64,000 nucleotides of DNA from Nannochloropsis oceanica (Eukaryota; Sar; Eustigmatophyceae; Eustigmatales; Monodopsidaceae), in NCBI GenBank assembly GCA_004519485.1, contig CP038130.1, forward strand, positions 1,327,574 to 1,391,573, in the 5' to 3' direction. Shown here piece after piece: positions 15,791-31,591 of the stretch; positions within the stretch are counted from its first letter, which is position 1, and every line of letters starts with the position of its first letter. Both the position numbers and the translations under genes were made by a program. A model generated the notes under the pieces. It made no database searches. It was not told the origin of the DNA and saw nothing but the letters and a program-made list of their open reading frames with translations.

Positions 15791-17536
15791 CTATAGCCCC
15801 TCTCCTTCTGTACTTGGTCTCGCCACCGGTCCTCCTCCTCCTCCTCCTCCTCCTCCTCCGTCTCCTATCCCTCCTCCTGCTGCTGCTGCTGCTGCCGCAA
15901 CCCTCCGCCTTTCCTCCTCGGCCTCCTCCTCGGCCTCCTCTTTCTCCCTCTCCTCCTCCAAATGCTTGGCGTACTTCGCCGTGTACCTCCTCATCAGAAA
16001 CCCCAAAGCCACCAGCAACACCACCGACAGAACCAGCAACAATATCTCATGCAACAAGTGTGACTTTCCCCTCTGCCGTCCCTCCATCGCTTCCAACAAC
16101 GACCTAGTGCTCTGCCCGATGTGGACCCACAGAATCGTGAAGGGCAGCTCCGCCACAAAGCAACACAAGGTATATACTAAGAGAGGGAAGGGTAAGCACG
16201 ACATGCCATAGTTTTTGACAGCAATCGGGAGTGGGAGGAGTCGAAGGAGGAAGCATATTTGCCAGGGGTGTGTTTTGACAGCCCACGTCAAGGCCTCAAT
16301 GGGGGTCGTTTTGCGTCGGCGGCGACGAAGAGGGGAAGGAGGAGGCTGAGAAAGGACTCTGGGTGGGGAGGGGGGCGAAGTAGCCGGGGGAACAGGAACG
16401 GGGAGTTCAGATGAGGGGGGGAGGGATAAGGGAAGGGGTTCTGCTACTGGCTCTACAGCAGTAGGGGCGTAAATGGTGGTGTTCGTATGTGGTAAGTTCA
16501 AAGCGGAGTCTATTGACGTGCTGCTACCGTTGTTGTGACTGCTCCCACTTGTAACCCGCTGGAGGGCGGTCCGCGAGTTCTCAATATCGGATTCCTCGTT
16601 CTCCTTATCCGCACCTACTTCCAAGGCCCCTCCCTCGATCTCTCCTCTTTCCATCCCCTCCGTTTCACTACTGCTTTCACCTATTGCTGCTCCCCGTGCC
16701 TCCGCCTCCTGCTTCCTCTGCGCCAGCCTCCCCAGAAACACCTCCTTAAACGAGCCCGTAGTAATACACTGTCCCAACCAGAATCCCAAGTTATTGCCTA
16801 TCTGCTTTCCGACCGTAATGGAAACGACAGCCACGGGCCACGTGTAGATCATCCCAGCAATTATCTCCAATAAGGTGGCAGGGAGACAGAGCACGATCCA
16901 CAGGACGAGCAAAAGGGACATGTAAACGGCCGAGAGCGGCGCCTGGTCTTGGATGTACTGGGCGACTTGCAAGAACTCATCTTTGTACCGGGCCATCGCA
17001 TATGTTCCAATAACCAAGAAGGTCGTGACGAGGAAGAGGAGGAAAAAGAAGCGACGGTGGTTGTGGAAATATAGGCGCCATGTACGGGGAGCTGAGGAGG
17101 GACCGAGGGTGGAGGATGTGGAGATGCCGCGGGATCGGAGGGGTGACATGGGTTCGGCAGGAGGCTGTCTGCTGCCATCGCAACCCTCTCTACTGTTATT
17201 GCTGGTGCTAGTGGTCGCGCTGTGTATGTCGGCATGCACCAGGGGAAGAGATGGGGTGGTCGGGTCAGGAGTGTTCAACGGCAGCAGCGGCAGAGGCAGA
17301 GAGCGACTGTTTTTCGCTTCCACGTCCACGTGGTGTAGCTCCGATAAGTCTGGCAATGAATGTGCCGGATCGACCACATGGGTAGGCTGTTCGACCCGGG
17401 TGTCGTCGTGTGGGTCGGTGGGAATGGCAGCAGCATCCAGCATCCTATCCTGATGAACCGAGGGCACGCGTGTTTGATGATAGGCGATATGGCCCCGTGT
17501 GCCACCAGACCTTGCCGGGGGACTCAAGCTTGTCAA
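15791..17536 (-). CDS. VTT (SNARE-associated Golgi / TVP38-TMEM64) membrane protein
   Basis: A single exon of 581 residues. Residues 1-150 are a disordered cytosolic head. Membrane segments lie at about 163-181, 203-225, 228-247, 425-440, 451-475 and 498-514. The VTT hallmarks are present: LPATLLEIIAGMIY, GKQIGNNLGFWLGQ, then LLRLLPLPIAVKNYG and LPFTILWVHIG. VTT proteins (TVP38, TMEM64, TMEM41B, VMP1, bacterial DedA) act in ER/Golgi membranes, where some scramble lipids or affect ion homeostasis. The domain core is split by about 140 residues of Ser/Pro/Glu-rich sequence (about 275-415). The C-terminal tail is a charged coiled coil followed by an Ala/Gly run. The closest type appears to be TVP38/TMEM64; the exact role is unknown. 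Confidence 0.8.
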   Translation of the reverse strand: MTSLSPPARSGGTRGHIAYHQTRVPSVHQDRMLDAAAIPTDPHDDTRVEQPTHVVDPAHSLPDLSELHHVDVEAKNSRSLPLPLLPLNTPDPTTPSLPLVHADIHSATTSTSNNSREGCDGSRQPPAEPMSPLRSRGISTSSTLGPSSAPRTWRLYFHNHRRFFFLLFLVTTFLVIGTYAMARYKDEFLQVAQYIQDQAPLSAVYMSLLLVLWIVLCLPATLLEIIAGMIYTWPVAVVSITVGKQIGNNLGFWLGQCITTGSFKEVFLGRLAQRKQEAEARGAAIGESSSETEGMERGEIEGGALEVGADKENEESDIENSRTALQRVTSGSSHNNGSSTSIDSALNLPHTNTTIYAPTAVEPVAEPLPLSLPPSSELPVPVPPATSPPSPPRVLSQPPPSPLRRRRRKTTPIEALTWAVKTHPWQICFLLRLLPLPIAVKNYGMSCLPFPLLVYTLCCFVAELPFTILWVHIGQSTRSLLEAMEGRQRGKSHLLHEILLLVLSVVLLVALGFLMRRYTAKYAKHLEEEREKEEAEEEAEEERRRVAAAAAAAGGGIGDGGGGGGGGGGPVARPSTEGEGL

Positions 17537-18982
17537 CGTCAGTCCTGTTTAATTATGTCATGAAGGGATTAGCGCGTATGGTGGGTACCGGGTTGATATC
17601 TGGAGGGATGCCCGGCAAGCTGGCACCTGATCGAGCGCTCGCCGCGGTCCCGCCAACAGGATGAATCATCTATCATGATTCATGAATCAACGCATCTCTT
17701 CAACCGGAGCACAACGGGTAACCGCACACAGCGATATAAATTACACAGTAGAGACTTAAAGGGGGTATAGTCTGTGGTGGGAAGGAGCTGCTGCAGGATC
17801 AAGCGCTCCACCTGCGTGTGCAAGGCTTGCTAAGCTCAAAATGCCTGTGTGCCAGCCATAGGCAGAGCTAGTTGTGAGAGCCAAAGTCAACCAGCATTGC
17901 CTATTTATTGGGCCAGATAATTGCAGGCACGAAAAATAAACATTGGACAATTTTATGCAGCACATTTATCAAAGGGTGAGGGCCACGGGATGACCAAATT
18001 TGCAGATTACAACCATGCTTTGTGTTGTGCCTGTGCCCCATATCTCACCTTCCACGAATCAACCGGTCACATTCAGTCGTTGCCTTCGATCACATTTTCC
18101 AGTTCATCGCAACCCACACAGAAACAAAATCCAATAGAGGAGCCACAAAAAATAATGTTCATGCAACAAAGCCTGTGTGAAGAAGCAAGGCGTCGCCTCC
18201 ACCACCCTATAGACGCCAGCGTAGGTCCTGGGGCCCATTCTCGCCTGCATTACATCCTTCCAGTCTGCCTTGTTCGAAGAGCTAGACATGGACGCCGCTC
18301 TCACCACCCTAGCCTTTTCTTCAGAGACGTCGATGTTCGACAACCATTTCCTTATATACCGCGTGGCCCCAACACAAGCAAGCTTTAGATAGGAGGGGAA
18401 AGTCGGCCATGGCAGCTGCGGCTTTGTGATGGTGTAATTTATTGAACATGGAAACTGACTGGAGATTTCCCCACGGTGATAATTATTAAGTCGTTACTAC
18501 AAAATTTGTTCATAACAACCACTTGCCAATTTCTGGCATGTTTTATAACTTATACTTTTGTAAACCGAATCGGAGACCAATGTGGAATGACGAGCTTTTC
18601 GCGCTGCGGTGGCTGCTGCAAGAAGCATTTCACATTCCAATTTGCATTCCACACGCCAGTAGAAGGACACGGCAAGGAGAAATACTTTGGGAGGATAAAA
18701 TTAAGGGAGGTCTGGAAGGATAAGAAAAAAAAAGAGGTTAGAAGACTGGTGCTGCAGCTCAATCACGAAAATCGCCAGTTGTTCTTCAGCGACGAATGGC
18801 CTCAGAAGACGGGACACTGAATTGTACCACCACTCAAGCCCACTCCATTTCCCTCTTCACCCTCCTCCCTCACCAGGCTTTGTACTCATATTCGAGCAGT
18901 GGTGTCTTCTTTCCTCCATTCCGTTCTCCATTTACTAAGCGCGCAAGAAGGCGGGGAGCGAAAGCTCAACGCCATCATCGTT
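17537..18982. other. Divergent intergenic region, no gene supported
   Basis: The region lies between the starts of the VTT gene (-) and the GltS-TLDc gene (+), so both promoters should be inside it. A TATA-like string occurs near 17731-17739, but it is 195 bases from the VTT start and over 1.2 kb from the other. A 114-codon open frame at 18476-18820 has ordinary composition and no family resemblance. It could be a short lineage-specific gene, but nothing supports it. Confidence 0.4.
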
Positions 18983-21900
18983 ATGGCGGAGGCAGCGTCT
19001 ACACCCGGGAGCGATTTGCCCATCTCGGACCAGACGTCCAAGGAAGTAAGTAGCCAGAAAGCAGAGGAAACAGTATTGTGAGAGGGGTCTCCGGAGGAGG
19101 AGGAGAGTTTATTTTGGAGTTGCTCCATGTGCAGCACACTCCCAGACCTCCTCACCCTCTCTGCACACAACAGGAGTCCCTTCGAGAGATGGGGGAGTGG
19201 GCGGCCCGGTACGAGATGATAGCTGCCATGGGCTACTTGGCCGCGCTATTGATGGTAGGCAAGGCCTTACACAACTTGGGAAAGATTGCAAAGGTATGGC
19301 AGGTTGGGTAAATGGGGAGTAGGATATGTGGTGGTCACGAGGGTTGGCCCGGGATGGTGATGTAGGCGAGCGCAAAGCTCATATTACGTCAACCCCGCTT
19401 CCTCCTCTCTATCCTCTTCCATTCCTCTGACACGCTTGCAAGCCACCCACTCATTCCAATCCCTCTCCCTTCCTCGCTTGTAGTTCCGGTTCACCCCTCC
19501 CTCCGCCGTTATCTCGGGTTTTCTGGGCTTGGGTCTCTATGACATCATGGGGGCTTGCTCGAAGCTCCTGCAGGTGGAGCTGGAGTCTAGCTTGCGGTCG
19601 ATTGAAGTGAACATGTACGTGACAGAGAAGACGCGGCCGAAGGGAGGGTAAGGGGAAGGTAGGGGGGAAGCGAGGCATGCATCATCTCTACTGTGTATGG
19701 CGTCCATGAGTTTATCTGTGCGGAGGCCCTTCTCCCTCCCACCACGATCACCATCCTCCCCACCCCTAGCGTCAACTTCGTCTTCACATCCCTCATCTTG
19801 GGCTTCACCAGCGGAACCAAGAAAACTAAGGTACGTAGGTAGCCTTCCCCTGCCCTTCTTCACCATGTCCCTCCGTCCCTCCCTCCCTCCCTCCCTCCCT
19901 CCCTCCCTCCCTCCCTCCCTCCCACAGTTCCTCCCTCCCTTCCTCCTTTCCCAACAGATGACCTACAAGAGGATCTTCGGCCTGATTTTCCACGAGGGCA
20001 TGCCTATGCTCCTCTACGCACAGGCGCTCATTTGGGGTGAGGAACGCACCAAAATAGGGAGAGGAGGGGGGGAAGAAGGGAAAAAGGGAGGGAGGGAGGG
20101 AGGGAGGAAGGGAGGGGCGAAAGAGAGAGGTGCAAGAAGTGCCTCACATTTTTGCGTCTGATTCCCTCCCTCCCTTCCTCCGTCCTTCCCTCCTCCCTTT
20201 CTTGCCTCCCTTCCTTCCTTCCTCCGTCCTTCCCTCCTTCTCCCCCCCTCCCTCCTCCCCCTCCCAAACAAAGGCAATTCGGTGGTGGCGCTTCTCATCA
20301 CAGGCATCTACCGTCTCTGGAACCATGACATATCAGCCTATGAAGGCGGTCTCGTCACCCTCGGTCAGTCCCTGCCCTCCGTCCCTCCCTTCCTCCCTCC
20401 CTCCCTTCTTGCTCTATCGCCTCCTCACCCCCGCTCCCTCCCTCCCTCCCTCCCTCCCTCCCTCCCTCCAGGCCTGGAAGCCGGGCGTGACATCCTCCCT
20501 TCCCGCATCAAGTTCAAGGAAGAGTCTCTCGCCGTCGTGCACATGGGTGAGAAGGGAGGGAGGGAGGGAGGGAGGGAGCGAGGGACGGTGGGTGGATGTG
20601 GTAGCTTGCATCTGTTTCTCGCACCGTTCTGACCTCCCTCCCTCCCTCCCTCCCTCCCTCCCTCCCTCCCTCCCTCCCTCCCTCCCTCCCTCCCTCCCTC
20701 CCTCCCTCCCTCTTAGCGGACTCGGCCGGCCTGACCATCTCCATCCTGGTCGGCGTCATCCTCGTCGCCTGCCGCAGGGTCTCGCCCAACAGGTAGGGAG
20801 GGAGGGAGGGAGGGAGGGAGGGGAGGATGTAGGGAGGGAGGGAGGGTTGAGTGTCTACAGTGGGGCGTACGCAGTCGTTCACAAGCACGGCTCCCCCCCT
20901 CCCTCCCTTTCTCTTTCGCGCACGACAGGAAAGAGGAATGGTTCGGCATCGGCAGCTGGCGGAAAGAACGAGGCGCGTATTTCCCCTCCCTCCCTCCCTC
21001 CCTCCCCCCCCCCTTCCCCCCTCCCTTCCCCTCTCCTTCTAACCCTCCTTCCCTCCCTCCCTCTCTCCCTCCCTCTCTCCCTCCCTCCTCCCCTCCCTCC
21101 TCCCCACCCTCCTCCCCTCCTTCTAACCCTCCTTCCCTCGCCCCCTCCCCTCTCCCTTCTCTTGCAGGCGGGCAGGGCCCTCTGACAAATCGCGAGCACT
21201 TCCAGCGCCATGTGGGAGGGGGGGAAGGAGGGATGCACCTCCTCCCCCCTCCTGGGCGGGCACTTCGGGAGGAGGAGGAGGAGGAGGAGGAGGAGGAGGA
21301 GGGAGGAGGGGCGCAGGAAGGGAGGAGGGGGAGGAGGATGGAGGAGGAGGAGGAGGAGGAGGAGGAGGTGGAGTTGGAGGAGGGGAGGGCAACTCCGTCC
21401 TTCGGTCCTTCCTCCTCTTCGGTGAGCAAGAGGACGAAGTCCATCGACACGCAGCAGCAGGAGGGGCAGGAGCAGCAGCAGCAGCAGCAGCAGGAGCAGG
21501 AGCAGCAGCAGCATAAGAAGAAGGTCTCTGCCCTATCCATCCTCCCCTCGCCATCGAGTGGGGCTGGCAGGAGGGGAGGGAGGAAGGGGAAGAGGCCTCG
21601 GGCTCTTCCAGGTGTGCAGCAGCAGCAGCAGCAGCAGCAGGAGGGAGGGTGAGTGCCGTGGTTGGTTTTAGGAGAGATACGACAGACACACGGGCCAGCA
21701 CACATCTTGATCACCCCTCCCTCCCTCCCTCCCTCCCTCCCTCCCTCCCTCCCGGTCCACAGGGCCACTCCCTCCGCGGGAGAAGACGCGGCGCTGGGCT
21801 CTCACATCGCTCTCATCGCCCTGTCGGTGTTTCTCGGTTACCTCTTGAACTTATCCCTGAAGTACCTCGGTGGGCAAGGGAGGGAGGGAGGGAGGGAGGG

Positions 21901-24812
21901 AGGGAGGGAGGGAGAGAAGGGCATGTGGAGAAGGGCATGTATTATACGTATATAGTTGTTTTTGGAATCGGCCCCAAAAAACACTTCACCCACCCACCCT
22001 CCCTCCGTCCCTCCCTCCCTCCGTCCCTCCCTCCCAAGAGCTGAACCGTCCATTCCTCCGCAATCACCACCTCATCTCGGGCATTCGCCTCTTCAAGATC
22101 TGCATGGTGGCAGCGGTCGTGTGTGTCACCACCATCCGATCCCTGTCGAGCCTGAGGTAGGTAAGGAGGGAGGGAGGGAGGGAGGGAGGGCGGGCAGGGG
22201 AGAGTCAAATACTAAGTGATACTTGAACACTGACCCTCCTTCCCTCCCTCCCTCCCTCCCTCCCTCCCTCCCTCCCTCCCTAGGTTCAAACCCGACTGGT
22301 TCCACCGCCTGGCCGGCTTTAGTTTAGACCTGATGGCCATTGCTGCCATTTCCTCGCAGCGTTTCGACTATTACAAGCAGGTACGGAGGGAGCGGGGGAG
22401 GGAGGAAGGGAGGAAGGGAGGAAGGAGAGAACGAAGGGCAGCGAGAGGTTGGCAAAATTTCGATTTTAGCATCCCAACGCCTCCCCTCCCTCCCTCCCTC
22501 CCTCCCTCCCTCCCTCCGCCTTGCCAGGTGGATAATATGGAGCTGGTGGTGCTGATCATTTTGGGCTGCGTGCTGTGGAACCTGTTGGCCTTCTTCGCCT
22601 TCGCCAAGCGCATGTTCCCCAATTTCTGGTCGGGAGGGAGGGAGGGAGGGAGGGAGGGAGGGAGGGAGAGGGTGGTGTCTGACCATTTACGACCTAGACC
22701 GTGCTTCCCAGTGTCTCTTGAGAAGAGGGAGAGCAGAGAGAGAGCAAAGAAGCAAGGAGAAGGAGGCCTCGTTCAAGTCGGACACACCGACTCTTCCCTC
22801 CCTCCCTCCCTCCCTCCCTCCGCAGGTACGCTCGTGGTGTCACCCTCATGGGAGATGCCCTCGGCCACAGCTGGGTGGGCCTGCTGCTGGCCCGGGCCAT
22901 CGACCCCGCGCTCCAGACGCCCGTGCCTTTGGCCTTCACCTACAAGCTACTGGTAAGGGAGGGAGGGAGGGAGGGAGGGAGGGAGGGAGGGAGGGAGGGA
23001 AGGAGGGACAAAGAGGTCTATCTCCCGACAGGTCTCAAGCAATCCTCCCTCCTTCCCTTTCTCCCTTCCTCCCTCGCCCGCAGGTGTTTGTCGTCCCCGG
23101 CTCGGGCGGCAAGAACAACATCGTGATGAGCTTGATCGACGTCTGGGGTCTCTGGCCCGCCTTGTGTGTGTGCCTTACCATGCTGTACTTCTGGATGTAC
23201 ATCTTCGACCGATACTACAAGCGGAGGTATGACCCCCTCCCTCCTTCCCTCTTTCCCTCTCTTCCGTCCCCTGTGACAAATGGAAGCATTCTCCTTCCTC
23301 CCTATCTCCCCCCCCCTTTCCCTCTCCTTCCTAACTCTCTTCTCATTCACTCACTATGCGCCTCCCTCCCTCCCTCCCTCCCTCCCTAGATGGCCTCGCC
23401 AACCACGAGGAGGCAGTGCAGGAGGCACGGTACGGGAAAAAGACGCGAAGAAATACGGTGGCGAGGGACGAGGAAGGAAGGGAAGGGCCCGTCTGGACAC
23501 AGAGGAAGAAGAGGCGGAGCTGGAACTGCTGGGTAAGTGAGGGAGGGGAGGGGAGTTGGGAATGAGAAGGAGAGAGGGAGGAAGGATAAGAGGAGGGAAG
23601 GGAGGGAGGAAAGGAGGAAATGAGGGCGGGAGGGGAAATGATTCGATTCAAATATCTTGTCTTACTGACCTGCACGTCGCTCCCCCTTCCCTCCGTCCCT
23701 CCCTCCGTCCCTCCCTCCCTCTCTTTTTTAGCCATCCAGGGCGATAACTCGCCCTCCCTCCTCCCTACCACCGGCCACGATGCCCGCGACCTCGACTCTT
23801 TCGCAGGCTTCCGGCCCTTCCCCTCCCTCTCGGAAGCCTCGACCGTCCTGTCCAAGGCCCACATAAAGCAGATATTGCCGTGCCTGCCGGAGAGAGACGC
23901 GGTGCGAAAGTGGATCAAAGTTTACTGTATGTCCCGCGACGGGGCCAGCCTCGGCACACTCCTTTTCAAGGTACGGCTTCTTCCCTCCTTCCCTCCCTCC
24001 CTTTTTCACGCATCAATGTTGAATCCTTTCCCCTTTCCCTCACCCTCTCCCTCCTCCCCTCCCTCCCTCCCTCCCTCCCTCCTCCCTCTTCCCCTCCGCC
24101 AGGTCATGTCGACGGAGCGGAAGCTGACGTCCTTCCTGATCGTTATTGAGGACTCTTGGGGTTACATTTTCGGAGGCTACTGCCCTTGTCCTCTCCAGAA
24201 CGCCACTGGCTATTACGGCACGGGGTGCGAAAGCCTTCTTTCCCTCCCTCCCTCCTTCCCTCCCTCCTTCCTTCCCTCCTTCCCTCCCACTTGAGATGAC
24301 GGCTTTGCCCCTCAGTTTCGTCATGCCTTCTTCCCTTCCCTCCCTTCTTCCCTCCCTTCTTCCCTTCCCTCCTTTCTTTCCTTCCTTCCTCCCTCATCCC
24401 CCTTCCCCCCAGCGAGAGCTTCGTGTTCAAGTTCCACCCTCAATTCACCCCCTACAAGTGGACGGGCAAGAACGATTACTTCATCCTCTCCAACGCCCAA
24501 CACCTCGCCATGGGCGGTACGTCCCACCGGAATTCCCCCCCCCCCCCCCCTTTTTCCATCCCAACACTCCCCCCGCCCATATCCTTGCTCCTTCCATATG
24601 CCTCGCTCAACCCCTCCCTCCCTCCCTCCCTCCCTTTGGGTTCTTTCTTCTCCCTCCCAGGAGGCAGCGGCTTTGCCTTCCAACTGGACGATGAACTAGA
24701 CACAGGGGTGAGCGGGCCCTCAGACACGTTCGGGAACACTCGTCTGTCCTCCCGGCATGTCTTCAAATGCCTCTCTATTGAAGTATGGGCCTTTGGGGAA
24801 ATGAACGATTGA
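18983..24812 (+). CDS. GltS-like sodium/glutamate symporter fused to a C-terminal TLDc domain
   Basis: I could join 21 exons in phase: 18983-19045, 19174-19293, 19484-19647, 19770-19830, 19958-20036, 20274-20363, 20472-20546, 20717-20792, about 20936-20976, 21168-21648, 21763-21869, 22039-22156, 22284-22380, 22528-22628, 22826-22952, 23084-23226, 23390-23532, 23732-23970, 24103-24224, 24413-24516, 24661-24812. The product is about 900 residues. Residues 20-255 and 417-648 hold two bundles of hydrophobic helices with GltS order and motifs, notably GFSLDLMAIAA, the long helix before a short basic turn, and FVVPGSGG near the end. They are separated by a Glu/Gln-rich loop (about 257-417). Residues about 720-900 form a TLDc domain (LPERDAVRKW, SLGTLLF, YKWTGKNDYFI, AMGG...GFAFQLDD, CLSIEVWAFG). 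Bacterial GltS signature loops (SGGHGT, GATPTA) are not recognisable, so the substrate is uncertain. TLDc proteins bind V-ATPase. Confidence 0.82.
19871..19923 (+). repeat. CCCT tetranucleotide tract in intron 4 of the GltS-TLDc gene
   Basis: About 13 copies of CCCT lie upstream of the acceptor used at 19958. The tract is on the coding strand and supplies the polypyrimidine signal. On the other strand it is a run of GGGA, able in principle to form a G-quadruplex. Confidence 0.85.
20633..20713 (+). repeat. Longest CCCT tract, intron 7 of the GltS-TLDc gene
   Basis: About 20 perfect CCTC units (81 bases) fill the 3' part of intron 20547-20716 and end one base before TTAG. The same intron begins with a (GGGA)n run at about 20554-20578, the reverse complement of the tract. 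Confidence 0.9.
22629..22825 (+). repeat. Intron with opposed GGGA and CCCT tracts
   Basis: This intron opens with GTCGGGAGGG and about nine GGGA copies (to about 22668), and closes with about six CCCT copies (22795-22821) before GCAG. It is one of the clearest examples of complementary repeats at the two ends of one intron. Confidence 0.85.
22953..23083 (+). repeat. Intron with a long GGGA run after the donor
   Basis: GTAAGGGAGGG is followed by about eleven GGGA copies to about 23000. The 3' half is C/T-rich with CCCTCC blocks and ends CGCAG. The tract is perfect and therefore likely to vary in length between strains. Confidence 0.85.
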
Positions 24813-25198: not shown

Positions 25199-25269
25199 TC
25201 ACCTGTCTCCCTTGTCTTTGGGGCTGATCCGCGCTGCTGCTGTTCTAAGTGCTGCTGCTGTTGCTGTTG

Positions 25270-25301
<32 letters not shown>

Positions 25302-27331
25302 ACACGATACTGTTGCTTGTGATGCTGCTGTGACTGAGGCTGCTGCTGCTTGGCAGCTCCACGTCTCGCAGTACTACTTTTCTTATTTTTCCCTTGGCCA
25401 GCAGGAAGGGTCTGCCTTCCCTTCTCCACACCGCCTCTTCCTCCTCCCCCTTCTCCTTTACCGCCATTCACTGCCGCATCCACTGTCGCTCTTCCAACTT
25501 GCCGTTGCAGTTGCTCCTGCTGCTGCTGCTGCTGTTGTTGCTGACTCTGACGCAATTGCCGTGTTGGTTGTTGTGGTTGTGGTTGTTGTGGTTGTTGTGG
25601 TTGCTGCTGCAGCTGCTGCTGCTTGGCAGCTCCACGTCTCGCAGTACTACTTTTCTTATATTCCCCTTGGCCAGCAGGAAGGGTCTGCCTTCCCTTCTCC
25701 ACACCGCCTCTTCCTCCTCCCCCTTCTCCTTCACCGCCATTCACTGCCGCTCTTCCATCTTGCTCTTGCTGTTGCTCCTGCTGTTGTTGCTGCTGCTGCT
25801 GCTTCTGCTGCGGCACCGGCTGGTACATCTTGGTTCCCCTCGGCTGGATGCTCCCTTTTTCCCCTCCTCCACCTCTTCCTGCCTTTCCCCCTCCTCTTCT
25901 CGCACCTCGCACCCCAGACCTTCCCCGTCCTGCACCTCGTCCTCCCCCTCCTCCTCGTCTCAGTCCTCTTTCTCCACCCACCTCTTCTTTCCCTTGTTTA
26001 TCCAAATGAGTCAAAAATGACGATGCCATTGCCCTACCCTCCTCTCCACCCGTGTCAGTCACATGGAATGCGGAGGAAGGGGATGAGATCAGAGAGGCAG
26101 AGGAAGCTGGCAGCCCCCACAGCTGGGCCGCTGTGGCAGAGGAAGACGAGGAGGATGAGGGAAGGGGGGAGGATGCTGAATGCATCGAAGGAGGGAGGCG
26201 GGGCTTGGGGTGTTGCTTGTGAGATGGTGTCGAAGGAGGAAGGGAGGGGGGGGGGGATGGAGGCTGGATAAGCATGCCGGGCAGGCCCCAAGTGCTTGCT
26301 CCCTGACCTCCCGTGCCTACGCTATTGCTGCTGCTGCTGCTGCTTCTTTTACTGCTGCTGTTGCTCATGGCGCCTCGCCCTTCTCCAGCACCGCCAAGAC
26401 GGGCGTGAAGATGAGGAGGAGGGACAGGACCAGTCCCCGTCCTATTGCCAAGTGCCCCCTGCTGCTGCTGCTGCTGCGGCGGCGGCGGCGGCGGCTGCTG
26501 CTGCTGTCCCCATCCAAGACTACCTCCTGAAGGGCCTGGAGCGGCGAGAGGGGTCTGTCGAAGCAAGGAGGAAGAGGACGAGGAGGAGGAGGAAGGAGCA
26601 GCCGGTGGCCCTTCAACCCCAACGAGGCTGACGTACCAATCTTCAGAGAAGGAGGAGGGGTAGAGGCTCGAGCCCTCCTCTTCTTCCTCCTCGACCTGCT
26701 TCGCCTTCGCCACTGCCACAGGTTGCAGCTTCATCGAAGGTAAAAGAGGGGCTGAGGAGGAGAAGGAGGAAGAAGGCTCGGGGGCAGAAGAGGGCTCGAG
26801 CGTCCACGACTCGGCGGCTGAGGCTGCAGACCAAGATGCGGGTGGGAGCGGGTGCCCCCCACCACGCCCTCCTCCTCCTCCTCCTCCTCCTCCTGATCCA
26901 GCCGTAAGACTCCACTCCCCTGTCCGTCGCCCCCCTCCTTCCTCCCTCCCTCCCCTCATGTCCTGCCCACCCAACGCCCCTTCGAGGCCTCCCCTCGCTC
27001 TCTGAGTACTCTCCAGGAAGCCAATACAAGGATGCAGTGCCATCCCTGCCGCTTCTCCCTTTCCTCTCCCTCCTCCTCCTCCTCCTCCTCCTCCTCCTCC
27101 TTGACCATCACCACTACTACTGCTAGTGCCGATGAGGCGGCCGATAGATTGGACAAGTGAGGTGCTTTGCTCGGGCTGCTGGAGCTGGTCCTGCCGGTGC
27201 TGCAGGTGCTGGTGCACGATCAAGGGAGGAGTTAAGATGGACGAAGAAGAGAACTGCTGCTGCTGCTGCTGCTGCTGTTGCTGCCGCTGTCGTTGTTGTT
27301 GATGCAACAGGCTATGATGACCGCGTTCCTC

Positions 27332-27362
<31 letters not shown>

Positions 27363-30300
27363 CGCTGGTACTGCTCCTGCTCTTGCTGCTGCTTTTCATC
27401 ATCTTGAGATTCATCTGTATCTTCCCGGCCTTTCTTTGCTTTAGGCTTCTTCTTCCCCCTTTTCCTTGTCTTCTTCTTCTCCCCCACCTCTTTCCCTCCC
27501 TCCGCCTCTTTCTCCTCCCCCTCTTCCTCGCCCTCTTCCTCCTCCTCCTCCCCAAGAGGTAGGCCGGCTGTTGCTCTCTCCTCTGCCACAAGTTTTGCCA
27601 TTCCCTCACTCGACAGCAATGGACGCATCCACGCACTTACTGCCGGGGGAGGCCGAGGGATCTGTGGCGGTTGCTCTACCCCGCCTGCAGGTGTATCAGC
27701 ATCATCAGTAGGAGCAGCGTCTCCTTCCTCCTCCTCCTGCTGCTCTTGCCCTTGTCGCTCTTTTCGCTGCTGCTGTTCCACGTCCACCTTCTTTTTCTTC
27801 CTCTTCTTCTTCTTCTTCTTCTCCTCCTCCGTCCTGTCTCTCGGAGGGTCAGCACTCACGATCTCCCCGTCCTCGTTATACATCCAGAGACGGCCTTTCG
27901 TCCTGGGCCCTCTCCTCGCCCTCTCCTCCGCTCGCACCCTCCGCCGAGCCTCTGCAGCCGCTTGCGCTTCAGCTGCCGCCGCCGCCGCAGCAGCAGCCGC
28001 TGCAGTAGCAGCCACGGCATTCAGCTTCTCTTGATCTGCATGCTGCTGGCCAGGGGGTGGTCTGACAAGGGGCTCCTTCCGTACCTTCCTCTCCCGCTCT
28101 GGCCTACGTCCCCTCTCGGTCATCCCTCCTTCCCTCCTTCCTTCCCTGCCCGCCTTCTCCTTCACATCTACCAATTTCCCCTGGGAAGGGTCAAAGAGCT
28201 GCCGCTTTCCCCCACCCTCCCTCCCCACCTCAGTCCCCCCCGCCCTGTCCCTACCCTCATCATCAAATGCCACAACCCGTCCCTCCTCCCTCGCTCCTTC
28301 CCTCCCTTCCTCCGTCTCCTCCGTCGTGGAGCGTGGATACTGCGAGTAGGTGGGGGGCACTATGAAGCCCCTCTCCTGCACGTGGTGCTGCTGCCACAAC
28401 TGCTTCTGCTGGTGCTGCTGCTCTTGGTCAGGCACAGACATGACAGGCGAACCTTCCTCCTTGCCTCCCTCTCGCCCACCCAAGACGCTCGCATAAGATG
28501 ACGGACGAGGACGAGGGGAAGGAGAAGAAGGCCGCCGCTGCTGCTGCTGCTGCTGCTGCTGCTGTCCAAGCAAGGAAAGCGTGGAGAGGTGTGATAGCTC
28601 CCATCCTACTCCTACTCCTGACCGGTGCGAGGGAGGGGAGGAGCACAACTTGCCAGCGGCTGGACGAGGCAAAATTGTACAGGGCGGAGCAGACGCTTGA
28701 AGCCCTTGTTGTTGTTGCTGTTGCTGTTGCTGCTGTTGCTGCTGTTGCTGCTGTTGCTGCTGCTGCTGGTGCTGGTGCTGGTGCTGGTGCTGGTGCTGCA
28801 TGTGTCGGCGCTCCCTCTCCTGTTCCTCCCTTTCCCGTCGTGCCCTCTCTTCCTGCTCCTTCAGACTCTTTTTTTCCAAGGCCTTTCGCCGCATGTACTC
28901 CGAGATGTCCTCTCCGGGCAGCAAACCCCTCTCTCTCTCCCTCCCCCCTTCCCTCGAGGAGGAGGAGGACGAGGAGAGAGAGGGGGAGGAAGGAGGGAGA
29001 CGGTGCCTTTCTTGGACGTCGTTGAAGGGCGTGTGCTGCTGCTGCTGCTGCTGCTGTTGCTGCTGCTCCTCTTGGACTAGCTGCCTCCGACGCCAATCCT
29101 CTTGCTTATCCTTCAATTGCCGCTGGTGCTGCTCTTGTTTCTCTTGCTGCTGCTGCTGCCGCTGCCATCGTCCCTCCACTTCTTCCCTTGCCTTTTCCTT
29201 TTGAAAATCCTCCTCCTCATTAAGCGCTGCCAAGCCCAAGGCGGCCCGGCTCTGACCCCATCCGGCTGCGGAGGAAGCCAGGGAAGGCAGGAAGGAAGGA
29301 GGGGTTGTAGGGGAGGCGAGTGGGGAGTGGGGGCCGTGGGGGTGAGGGCTCCTGTCGAGGGTGTACTCGTAGGCAGCCGAGGGAGAGGAGATGGCGTCGC
29401 CTGTGTCCCTTCCCCAGGCGGGGGAGGAGGAGGAGGAGTAGCCTGCTCTTCCATTGCCTCGATCGCCTTGGGAGTAGTAAGGGCCGCGACCTCTCTCGCT
29501 TCCTCCTCTGGCTCCCCTACCACCGCCTAAATCACCCCGACAACCCCCTCCCCGCTCCACGGACGCGAAGGTCCCTCCTCCCCTCCACCCCTCTCTCCCT
29601 GCCCCCACCGCTCCCCAACCACCTTGCTCCTCGTCCCGACGACCTCCATGATGGTGACTGTGATCCTCTACCCCTCCTCCCTCCCTCCTTCGCTCCCACC
29701 CTCCTCCTCCCTCCCTCCTTCCCTCCCACCCTCCTCCTCCCTCCCTCCTTCCCTCCCACCCTCCTCCTCCCTCCCTCCTTCCCTCCAACCCTCCTCCTCC
29801 CCTCCTTCCCTCCCACCCTCCTCCTCCTCCACTTTCTCCACCCCATCCCGAGCCATAACATCTTCTCTCTCCGTACTCTCTTCTCTCCCCTTTTTCTCCC
29901 CTCTCTGCCTCCCGCCGGTGCGGAGGCACCCACCTCCCTCCCGACCTCCCCTCCGCCAACGCCTCGCCGACGCCCCTCTCCCACCTCTCCTCTCTCGCCT
30001 GTCCTCCTTCTCCCAACCGGGAAGGTAGTGATGCTGAAGAAGAGGAAGAACAAGAGGGGAGGGGAGGAAGAGCGGAAAGGTGCGATGCAGAGTCTCTCTC
30101 CCCCCATTCTCCCCTCTCTCGCTTCCAAGTCGCGACCGGATAACGCCGGTAGTCCTCCTCTTCTCCTTTTTCCATGTGTGACGAAAAGCGCGCCGACGGC
30201 CTGAAGGCGTCGTCTTCTTCCAAATACTCTTTGTGGATGCTGACGCTGCTGTTACTGAGACCGTCGCCACCGGCACCCTGAGTGGCGCTACTACTACTAC

Positions 30301-31015
30301 TACCACCACTACTTGCTGCTGTTGTCGCCGCTGCTGCTGTCTTTGTTGTTGTTGCTGCTGGATTGCCACCCCACCCTCCCGACGCAGCTCCCCCTGCCTT
30401 TGAGGGTAAAGCCTTGGTTTCAGGCACCGGAGAAGGCGGTTCTGGCGGTACTGGCAATTGTGCTGGTGGCATCAATTTGTTGCCCCACCCACCCTCGGCG
30501 CTTCCGGAGGCGGCCGTTAAAACAGTGGCCATCATGCCTCCCGCGCCTGCACCCCCCCCTGCTTTGCCCCCGTGCCCCGCCACCTGTGCCGCGGTCGGTG
30601 CCACCATCCCGTCTCCACCCGCCGCGCCACTGCTGCTACCTGTCTTAAGCAACGTCAAACGATGACTGGTGGCCGTGTTGGCAGTACCACTTCCAGCCTG
30701 ACTGGCGCTAGTCGGGGGAGACGAAAGGGCGGCGGCAAAGGAAGACGACGCTGCACCCGACGCGCCAGCAGCCGTGCTGTGAGGAGAGATTGAAGGATGG
30801 TGACCTTTGCTTCCCAAGCCCCCTTTTACGCGGTAGACCAGGGCCTGCGTGAGGTTCTTGGCCGCGTAGGTCTTACGGGGTGGGGGAGGAGGAGGGGAGG
30901 ATGCAGACGACACCGAGGGGCTGGACGATGCCCCGCCGGCGGTTGTTGTGGCCGCCACCGCCACCTGCTTCTCAGTCCCCGCGTCCACCGTGGTCATGGC
31001 GGTGGGTTGCCCCAT
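25199..31015 (-). CDS. Very large low-complexity (Gln/Ser/Gly/Glu-rich) protein, function unknown
   Basis: An uninterrupted frame of 1938 codons from the ATG at 31015. The frame stays open although many stretches are simple repeats: CAG-encoded Gln runs (longest Q/H region about residues 738-770), Gly/Arg/Glu repeats (about 390-560), a Lys/Arg run near 1058-1070, and many Ser runs. Less repetitive islands recur: the N-terminal KTYAAKNLTQALVYRVKGG, a charged coiled coil beginning ISEYMRRKALEKK, and GRLWMYNEDGEIVSADPP near residue 1043. The last is the best candidate for a conserved motif. No transmembrane segment or catalytic domain is visible. The composition resembles RNA-granule or nuclear scaffold proteins, but this is only a composition argument. 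Small introns hidden in the repeats are possible. I do not recognise the family. Confidence 0.6.
25342..25477 (-). repeat. 136-base direct repeat inside the low-complexity gene, copy 1
   Basis: This block recurs almost unchanged at 25615-25750. It encodes the KGRQTLPAGQG...KKSSTARRGAAKQQQ segment near the C-terminus of the 1938-residue protein. The two copies differ at only a few bases and keep the same reading frame, so the protein has a recent in-frame tandem duplication. Confidence 0.85.
25615..25750 (-). repeat. 136-base direct repeat inside the low-complexity gene, copy 2
   Basis: The partner of 25342-25477, in the same orientation and frame. The sequence between the copies is a CAG/CAA-rich Gln tract, which probably served as the site of unequal exchange or slippage. 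Confidence 0.85.
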
Positions 31016-31591
31016 CCTGTGGCTGCGTTGGAGGGATTAGAGAGGGATGGGGAGATGTGATGGCTTCGGCTTGCTTTTTCGTCGCTTTTCATCGTCAGTG
31101 GAGAGCGAGAGGGAGCCAAAGCTATGGCTTTGCTCGTCCTCATGCTCTCTGACATGCAAAAGACTCGCGAAAGCCTGAAAGTGGTGCGGAATGAGCGGGT
31201 GTGTCTCTCACGGGTATGGTTGAGACGCAATAATAGGAGTGAGAAGCACATTAGAGCCGAAGGCGAGCGGTTGTTGTTCGTTGCTTGACGTTTGCGTATG
31301 GAAAATGTAAAGCATACATGAACGCGCCCACAAGAAATGAGAAGCAGGCTTTCAGGCGCTTGGACCTACGTAATCGGTAAAATTGTTTAATCATGGATCA
31401 TCTAGGTGCTCAGGAAAAGAAGCGTATGGTTACAGGGCAACATAAAAATACAAAGGAACGGCAGCGGCATATTTTCTCTTCATCTCATCGTTTACTTTGG
31501 TTTTGGTTTGTATGACGTGGAGTAGAGTTGATCCGGCCATTCGACAGATTTCTGTCTTTCTCGCTGCCTTCCTTGAGTCTCGACTTGATAA
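31016..31591. other. Intergenic stretch between two minus-strand genes
   Basis: It should contain the 3' end of the PPIL1 gene and the promoter of the 1938-codon gene. No open frame with family resemblance and no clear TATA box was seen. Confidence 0.45.

Follow-up and report, generated by a model that had tools for sequence, protein, structure and literature searches.

A Nannochloropsis gene predicted to join a divergent GltS-superfamily carrier to a TLDc domain

Our analysis revealed a gene of the alga Nannochloropsis oceanica that is predicted to encode a membrane carrier fold of the GltS superfamily and a complete C-terminal TLDc domain in a single protein. The gene lies on the plus strand at positions 18983-24812 of the window, by which we mean the whole stretch of 64,000 nucleotides that was analysed, in contig C4 of the assembly searched as the genome (29.3 Mb, 32 contigs). 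The two domains are encoded in this order, the membrane part is homologous to divergent bacterial GltS-type carriers over its whole length, and six residues that are important for V-ATPase binding in a mammalian TLDc protein are conserved. The best explanation, to which we assign a probability of about 0.5, is a membrane-tethered V-ATPase regulator, in which an altered GltS-superfamily carrier would anchor a cytosolic TLDc domain.

Results

An exon-by-exon rebuild of the gene gave 21 exons, with an ATG at 18983 and a stop codon ending at 24812, and the gene is real as a prediction. The first rebuilt model had GT at all donors and AG at all acceptors. The N-terminus and the first bundle of the carrier are encoded by exons 1-8 (18983-19045, 19174-19293, 19484-19614 or -19647, 19770-19830, 19958-20036, 20274-20363, 20472-20546 and 20717-20792), assigned by phase, splice sites and hhalign alignment. 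Exons 9-10 (20929-21648) encode a low-complexity central loop, predicted to be cytosolic, and the junction between them is uncertain. The second bundle, supported by hhalign, and an extra C-terminal helix were assigned to exons 11-16 (21763-21869, 22039-22156, 22284-22380, 22528-22628, 22826-22952 and 23084-23226). Exon 17 (23390-23532) encodes a charged linker with an acidic end (EEEEAELE) and leads from the carrier frame into the TLDc frame, as judged from phase, splice sites and a mixed codon score. The remainder of the linker, the TLDc domain and the stop follow in exons 18-21 (23732-23970, 24103-24224, 24413-24516 and 24661-24812), which are supported by matches to Pfam PF07534 and to the PDB.

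An earlier note, made from the sequence alone, had described these exons as joining in phase from a two-bundle membrane protein into a full TLDc domain with the stop at 24812. The start, the stop and the joining of the two bundles to TLDc were confirmed, and 19 of the 20 GT-AG introns keep the frame, but at exon 9/10, inside the low-complexity loop, the GT-AG pair 20976/21167 shifts it. The frame is regained with a GC donor at 20972, giving a protein of 890 residues, or alternatively with an extra intron at 21422-21611, giving 828 residues. When GT and GC donors were both considered, 49 of 192 donor-acceptor pairs for this junction were open, most of which rely on sites that we consider implausible. 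Among the three frames of exon 10, that of the 890-residue version scored highest under both codon backgrounds. A sequence error in this region, with its runs of E, Q and G, is possible. The end of exon 3 can be placed at 19614 (donor GTACGT) or at 19647, both in phase and 11 codons apart; the shorter form, ending at 19614, is preferred, and only this form was used in the alignment with bacterial relatives.

Half of the introns of the gene (10 of 20) begin with a purine-rich, (GGGA)n-like tract and end with a pyrimidine-rich, (TCCC)n-like tract, defined by a purine fraction of at least 0.7 in nucleotides 7-66 and a pyrimidine fraction of 0.78 or more over the final 40 nucleotides. Such ends could pair and thereby draw the splice sites together. 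The order (GGGA)n before (TCCC)n was ruled out as a rule for the whole window, where it was found in 8 versus 9 of 22 tracts. Two open frames were noted on the minus strand of the window. One, at 15791-17545, contains a VTT domain that was matched in two stretches. The other, at 25199-31036, spans 1945 residues from stop to stop and is mostly of low complexity, with runs of Q, S, G and E; its part at 28000-31033 matched no Pfam family at an E-value of 0.01.

The membrane part had no direct match in Pfam, NCBIfam or the PDB. The Pfam model of the GltS family, PF03616 (Glt_symporter), did not match the algal protein in hmmscan, and its alignment with a profile built from 43 rows of classical GltS was colinear but not significant (HMMER -5.4 bits, hhalign 0.9%); these are rows rather than genes, since L099 and L104, which have equal scores, are probably one gene. 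On the classical profile alone, GltS would be rejected. The verdict changed because divergent bacterial members of the family were found: a PF03616 search of 299 genomes gave a match in 46, a few divergent members among them, and two of these members match the algal protein with 59.5 and 53.0 bits. Against a profile of eight divergent bacterial sequences, the algal membrane part scored 110.3 bits in HMMER and 99.5% in hhalign, over 406 columns and its whole length. Each half was also recovered separately, the first bundle with 93.1% (E=3.3e-7) and the second with 99.1% (E=1.2e-18). The figures quoted refer to this set of eight, one of which (L161) is partial; the first version of the profile held ten sequences, from which L163, a chance match, and L162, which lines up with classical GltS, were removed. 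By eye, L163 resembles an unrelated enzyme.

Controls on the eight-sequence profile ruled out a chance hydrophobic protein: the maximum was 6.8 bits among 100 window-shuffled sequences and -0.5 for the reversed sequence, and the unrelated E. coli transporters XanP and YicJ scored -4.2 and -7.3, while E. coli GltS itself reached 54.5 bits. The subfamily profile in turn aligns with the classical GltS profile at 99.6%, and its member L135 exceeds the PF03616 cut-off (60.4 versus 26 bits). When four members were run through hmmscan, one matched PF03616; L136, which passed the cut-off in the genome search, had no match there in its trimmed form, and L154 matched no Pfam family; a profile of four sequences found no match in the PDB. 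The algal protein is 24-25% identical to five L135-like sequences and 17-22% identical to the other three. A tree of 19 sequences groups it with the same five (95/93), a place that is unsure because its branch is very long. These results support the assignment of the membrane part to a GltS superfamily that is broader than PF03616. The GltS-like carrier of the earlier note thus holds by way of the divergent bacterial subfamily, over the whole length, and fails by the Pfam model and the classical profile.

All 13 matches of a genome search with the membrane part fell within this gene. No paralogue of it was found in the genome by six-frame search, a method that is weak on short exons and that, with a bacterial relative as query, missed this very gene; a six-frame search with the PF03616 family, also weak on short exons, found nothing, and neither this search nor that with the bacterial relative speaks for absence. 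Scans of genome contigs and viral contigs found no close relative of the protein.

The two re-entrant loops of the carrier differ in how far they have changed. In the alignment, loop 1 (plus strand, 20474-20491, counted by hand from exon 7) has LEAGRD in place of GGHG; the GGXG motif is absent and the segment that follows is shortened. GGHG, scored as present anywhere in a row, occurs in 38 of the 43 classical rows and in 6 of the 8 from the subfamily, and the remaining rows have GGPAT, GGVGT, GGHA or QGPG; among bacterial relatives, L148 has QGPG and L150 has GGHA. Loop 2 (plus strand, 22851-22865, counted by hand from exon 15) has GDALG where the closest bacterial relatives have GQSMG, retaining both glycines of the subfamily motif, unlike the GFGLG of E. 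coli GltS; the algal GDALGHSWVGLLLARAIDP is recognisable beside GQSMGVTVTGLLLMRMADP of L135. The signature loops had been called unrecognisable, which is borne out for loop 1 and not for loop 2 once it is compared with the right bacterial relatives. The GGXG motifs in the GltS loops are reportedly functionally important, to judge by the title of one cited paper. Loss of GGHG makes ordinary sodium/glutamate transport unlikely.

The TLDc domain is complete. PF07534 matched with 153.7 bits (cut-off 24.5; E=5.8e-45) over model positions 2-170 of 170, and 11 distinct PDB sequences were found at E-values of 0.01 or below, in agreement with the full domain first reported from the sequence. The best of these was zebrafish 4ACJ (7e-31), named OXR2 in the available text of PMC8608904, which shares 66 of 163 aligned residues with the algal domain; NCOA7 chains came next, with E-values around 1e-29 to 1e-28, and OXR1 had 4.8e-14. 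V-ATPase binding of mouse NCOA7 is described there as abolished by G815A, G845A and G896A and weakened by S817A, L926A and E938A (PMC8608904). All six residues (G815, S817, G845, G896, L926 and E938) are kept in the algal TLDc domain, as read from the alignment to zebrafish Oxr2. Several of them are reported to be buried, their mutants folding poorly (PMC8608904), so that the conservation of all six argues equally for a sound TLDc fold and for an interface.

Further features of the domain may be compared with the accessible parts of the TLDc literature. Ncoa7 and Tldc2 carry acidic stretches upstream of TLDc, which showed a non-significant trend to stronger binding (PMC8608904); the end of algal exon 17 is such a stretch. 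The PF07534 match stops four residues short of the C-terminus and leaves a free end; for yeast Oxr1p, partial burial of the C-terminus in the V1 interface is described (PMC11094088). In the pull-downs reported in PMC8608904, V-ATPase was not bound by the purified TLDc domains of Tbc1d24 and Tldc1, so the presence of TLDc alone is not proof of V-ATPase binding. Nine TLD matches were found in the algal genome, of which three are exons of this gene and the rest lie at five other places; three of these (L001, L002 and L004) were scanned for domains, leaving out L003 and L006. An open frame at L001 (C11:219918-220415) contains ELMO/CED-12 and TLDc domains, and one at L002 (C1:1019949-1020446) contains TLDc and a TBC domain barely above the cut-off (25.6 versus 25.2 bits), a pair like that of TBC1D24.

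The orientation of the TLDc domain depends on the topology of the carrier. The central loop of GltS is said to be cytoplasmic in the title of one cited paper. Six helices follow this loop in the algal protein, including an extra hydrophobic segment near the end of the carrier that was seen by eye also in several relatives (L136, L154 and L160), and they are followed by a very basic tail (DRYYKRRWPRQPR). A cytoplasmic central loop with six further helices would place the C-terminus and the TLDc domain in the cytosol, where V1 is; given the eleventh helix, we infer a cytosolic TLDc domain. The positive-inside count agrees with this topology but is weak (0.16 versus 0.114 K+R per residue, with segments set by eye). 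The Glt_symporter family is labelled 10H-2RH-Nout in the accessible text of PMC8396727, where the label may refer to the first core helix.

Discussion

We propose that one gene encodes a divergent GltS-superfamily carrier fold of about 11 helices with two re-entrant loops, a charged linker and a C-terminal cytosolic TLDc domain. The carrier fold would keep TLDc permanently on a membrane that bears the V-ATPase, and the tethered domain would bind the pump and shift its assembly or activity, as reported for Rtc5 in yeast and mEAK7 in mammals. The carrier might move some other solute, or serve mainly as a sensor or anchor. The proposed link to the V-ATPase is strengthened by the six conserved functional residues and the predicted cytosolic C-terminus. 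The genome encodes V-ATPase subunit C, found as two exon-sized matches (best E=2.5e-6); these, the TLDc matches and the many introns of the gene mark the source as a eukaryote. In animals and yeast, domains of the TLDc kind bind the V-ATPase, the proton pump of acidic compartments. According to the text available for each, yeast Oxr1p promotes V-ATPase disassembly (PMC11094088), and so does Rtc5, which N-myristoylation and V-ATPase binding keep at the vacuole (PMC11066047). On the simplest view, the algal protein would act like Rtc5, with a polytopic anchor.

A dead carrier whose sole role is to anchor TLDc to the membrane overlaps with the favoured explanation and is the most credible of its competitors, although we consider it doubtful. 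The altered loop 1 with the shortened segment behind it, the very long tree branch, and the precedent of Rtc5, a TLDc protein that N-myristoylation and pump binding bring to the vacuole membrane in the available account (PMC11066047), all speak for it. However, the full carrier length and a recognisable loop 2 have been retained, which is beyond the needs of a mere anchor. A further reading, which we regard as unlikely, is that this eukaryotic descendant of the ESS/GltS superfamily works as a transporter-receptor. The altered carrier would change conformation on binding a solute and move the tethered TLDc on or off the V-ATPase, and vacuolar solutes would thereby set pump assembly within one polypeptide.

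An improbable alternative is that the fusion is a prediction error and that two neighbouring genes share this strand: the GltS-like carrier would end within intron 16 or close to it, and a separate TLDc protein would begin within intron 17. The evidence centres on exon 17, which is in phase on either side, with flanking splice sites GTATGA..CCCTAG and GTAAGT..TTTTAG; when it is omitted, the frame of exon 16 reaches exon 18 in a reading with an early stop. With the introns of the gene as background, the fusing frame of exon 17 scored 29.2 bits, compared with 22.8 and 6.5 for the other frames. Exons 16 and 18 are separated by just 505 bases, and the four signals looked for in between (AATAAA, ATTAAA, TGTAA and TGTGAA) are absent. 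These observations argue against two genes. Conversely, without splicing the carrier frame stays open until a stop at 23387-23389, and intron 17 contains an in-frame ATG from which a separate TLDc protein could begin. With its own base composition as background, exon 17 was negative in all frames, the fusing frame leading narrowly (-17.1, versus -18.3 and -33.4), and one frame of intron 17, at -2.5, scored better than any frame of exon 17. The training set of the codon test included exons 1-8, 11-16 and 18-21 of this gene and its intron background included introns 16 and 17, so part of what these exons and introns score is built in; neither set contained exons 9, 10 or 17.

Phase and splice sites thus favour the single protein that had been proposed for the carrier and TLDc, while the codon evidence is mixed, and we consider one gene, and hence a common transcript, quite probable. 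Judged by eye, exon 17 (23390-23532) is protein-like in another frame over its first half (GLANHEEAVQEARYGKK) and in the fusing frame over its second half, next to a run of five A. Because the halves read well in different frames, alternative splicing or an error of assembly is possible. The least probable alternative is that the carrier is still active and control is reversed, an anion or amino acid being moved across an acidic organelle membrane while V-ATPase assembly gates the carrier through TLDc: the retention of a recognisable loop 2 and many fold-defining positions and the variation of loop 1 in bacterial relatives (L148 and L150) would allow it, but AGRD stands at loop 1 instead of the usual GGHG, and the GGXG motifs there reportedly matter for function.

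If the membrane-tethered regulator is correct, its interest would be twofold. It would bear on the nutrient control of V-ATPase assembly, to our knowledge an unsettled matter. The TLDc regulators that we know of are soluble or are held by lipid and pump binding, and TLDc as part of a carrier would connect a solute to the pump directly and in a way that can be tested. Moreover, ESS family members are described as "not found in eukaryotes" in the available text of a 2025 paper (PMC12344293), and the algal protein would be a eukaryotic member of this carrier superfamily. The statement made at the outset that no described protein combines GltS and TLDc agrees with our literature search, which covered few subscription papers and found no publication containing both "TLDc" and "glutamate symporter", or both Pfam accessions. 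Likewise, no publication combining Nannochloropsis with "TLDc" or with "glutamate symporter" was found.

The predicted protein resembles several known systems in part. It shares with OXR1 and NCOA7 the sequence of the TLDc domain, including the six NCOA7 residues important for V-ATPase binding; in contrast to the algal protein, these proteins, as far as we know, have no integral membrane carrier part. Rtc5 of yeast and mEAK7 of mammals place TLDc at the membrane of an acidic organelle, as is proposed here, although in the accessible accounts N-myristoylation and binding to the V-ATPase anchor Rtc5 and mEAK7 is described as lysosome-anchored, whereas the algal anchor would be a polytopic carrier (PMC11066047, PMC9174246). 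With the divergent L135-like subfamily of GltS/ESS (PF03616, TCDB 2.A.27) it has in common whole-length homology, two bundles and the two glycines of loop 2, and it differs from this subfamily in lacking a Pfam match and GGHG, in its low-complexity central loop and in its eukaryotic host. The TAXI-GltS fusions of Lachnospiraceae, as described in the available text of PMC12344293, likewise join a GltS-type carrier to a second functional domain; theirs is an N-terminal substrate-binding domain, whereas that of the algal protein is a C-terminal TLDc domain predicted to be cytosolic.
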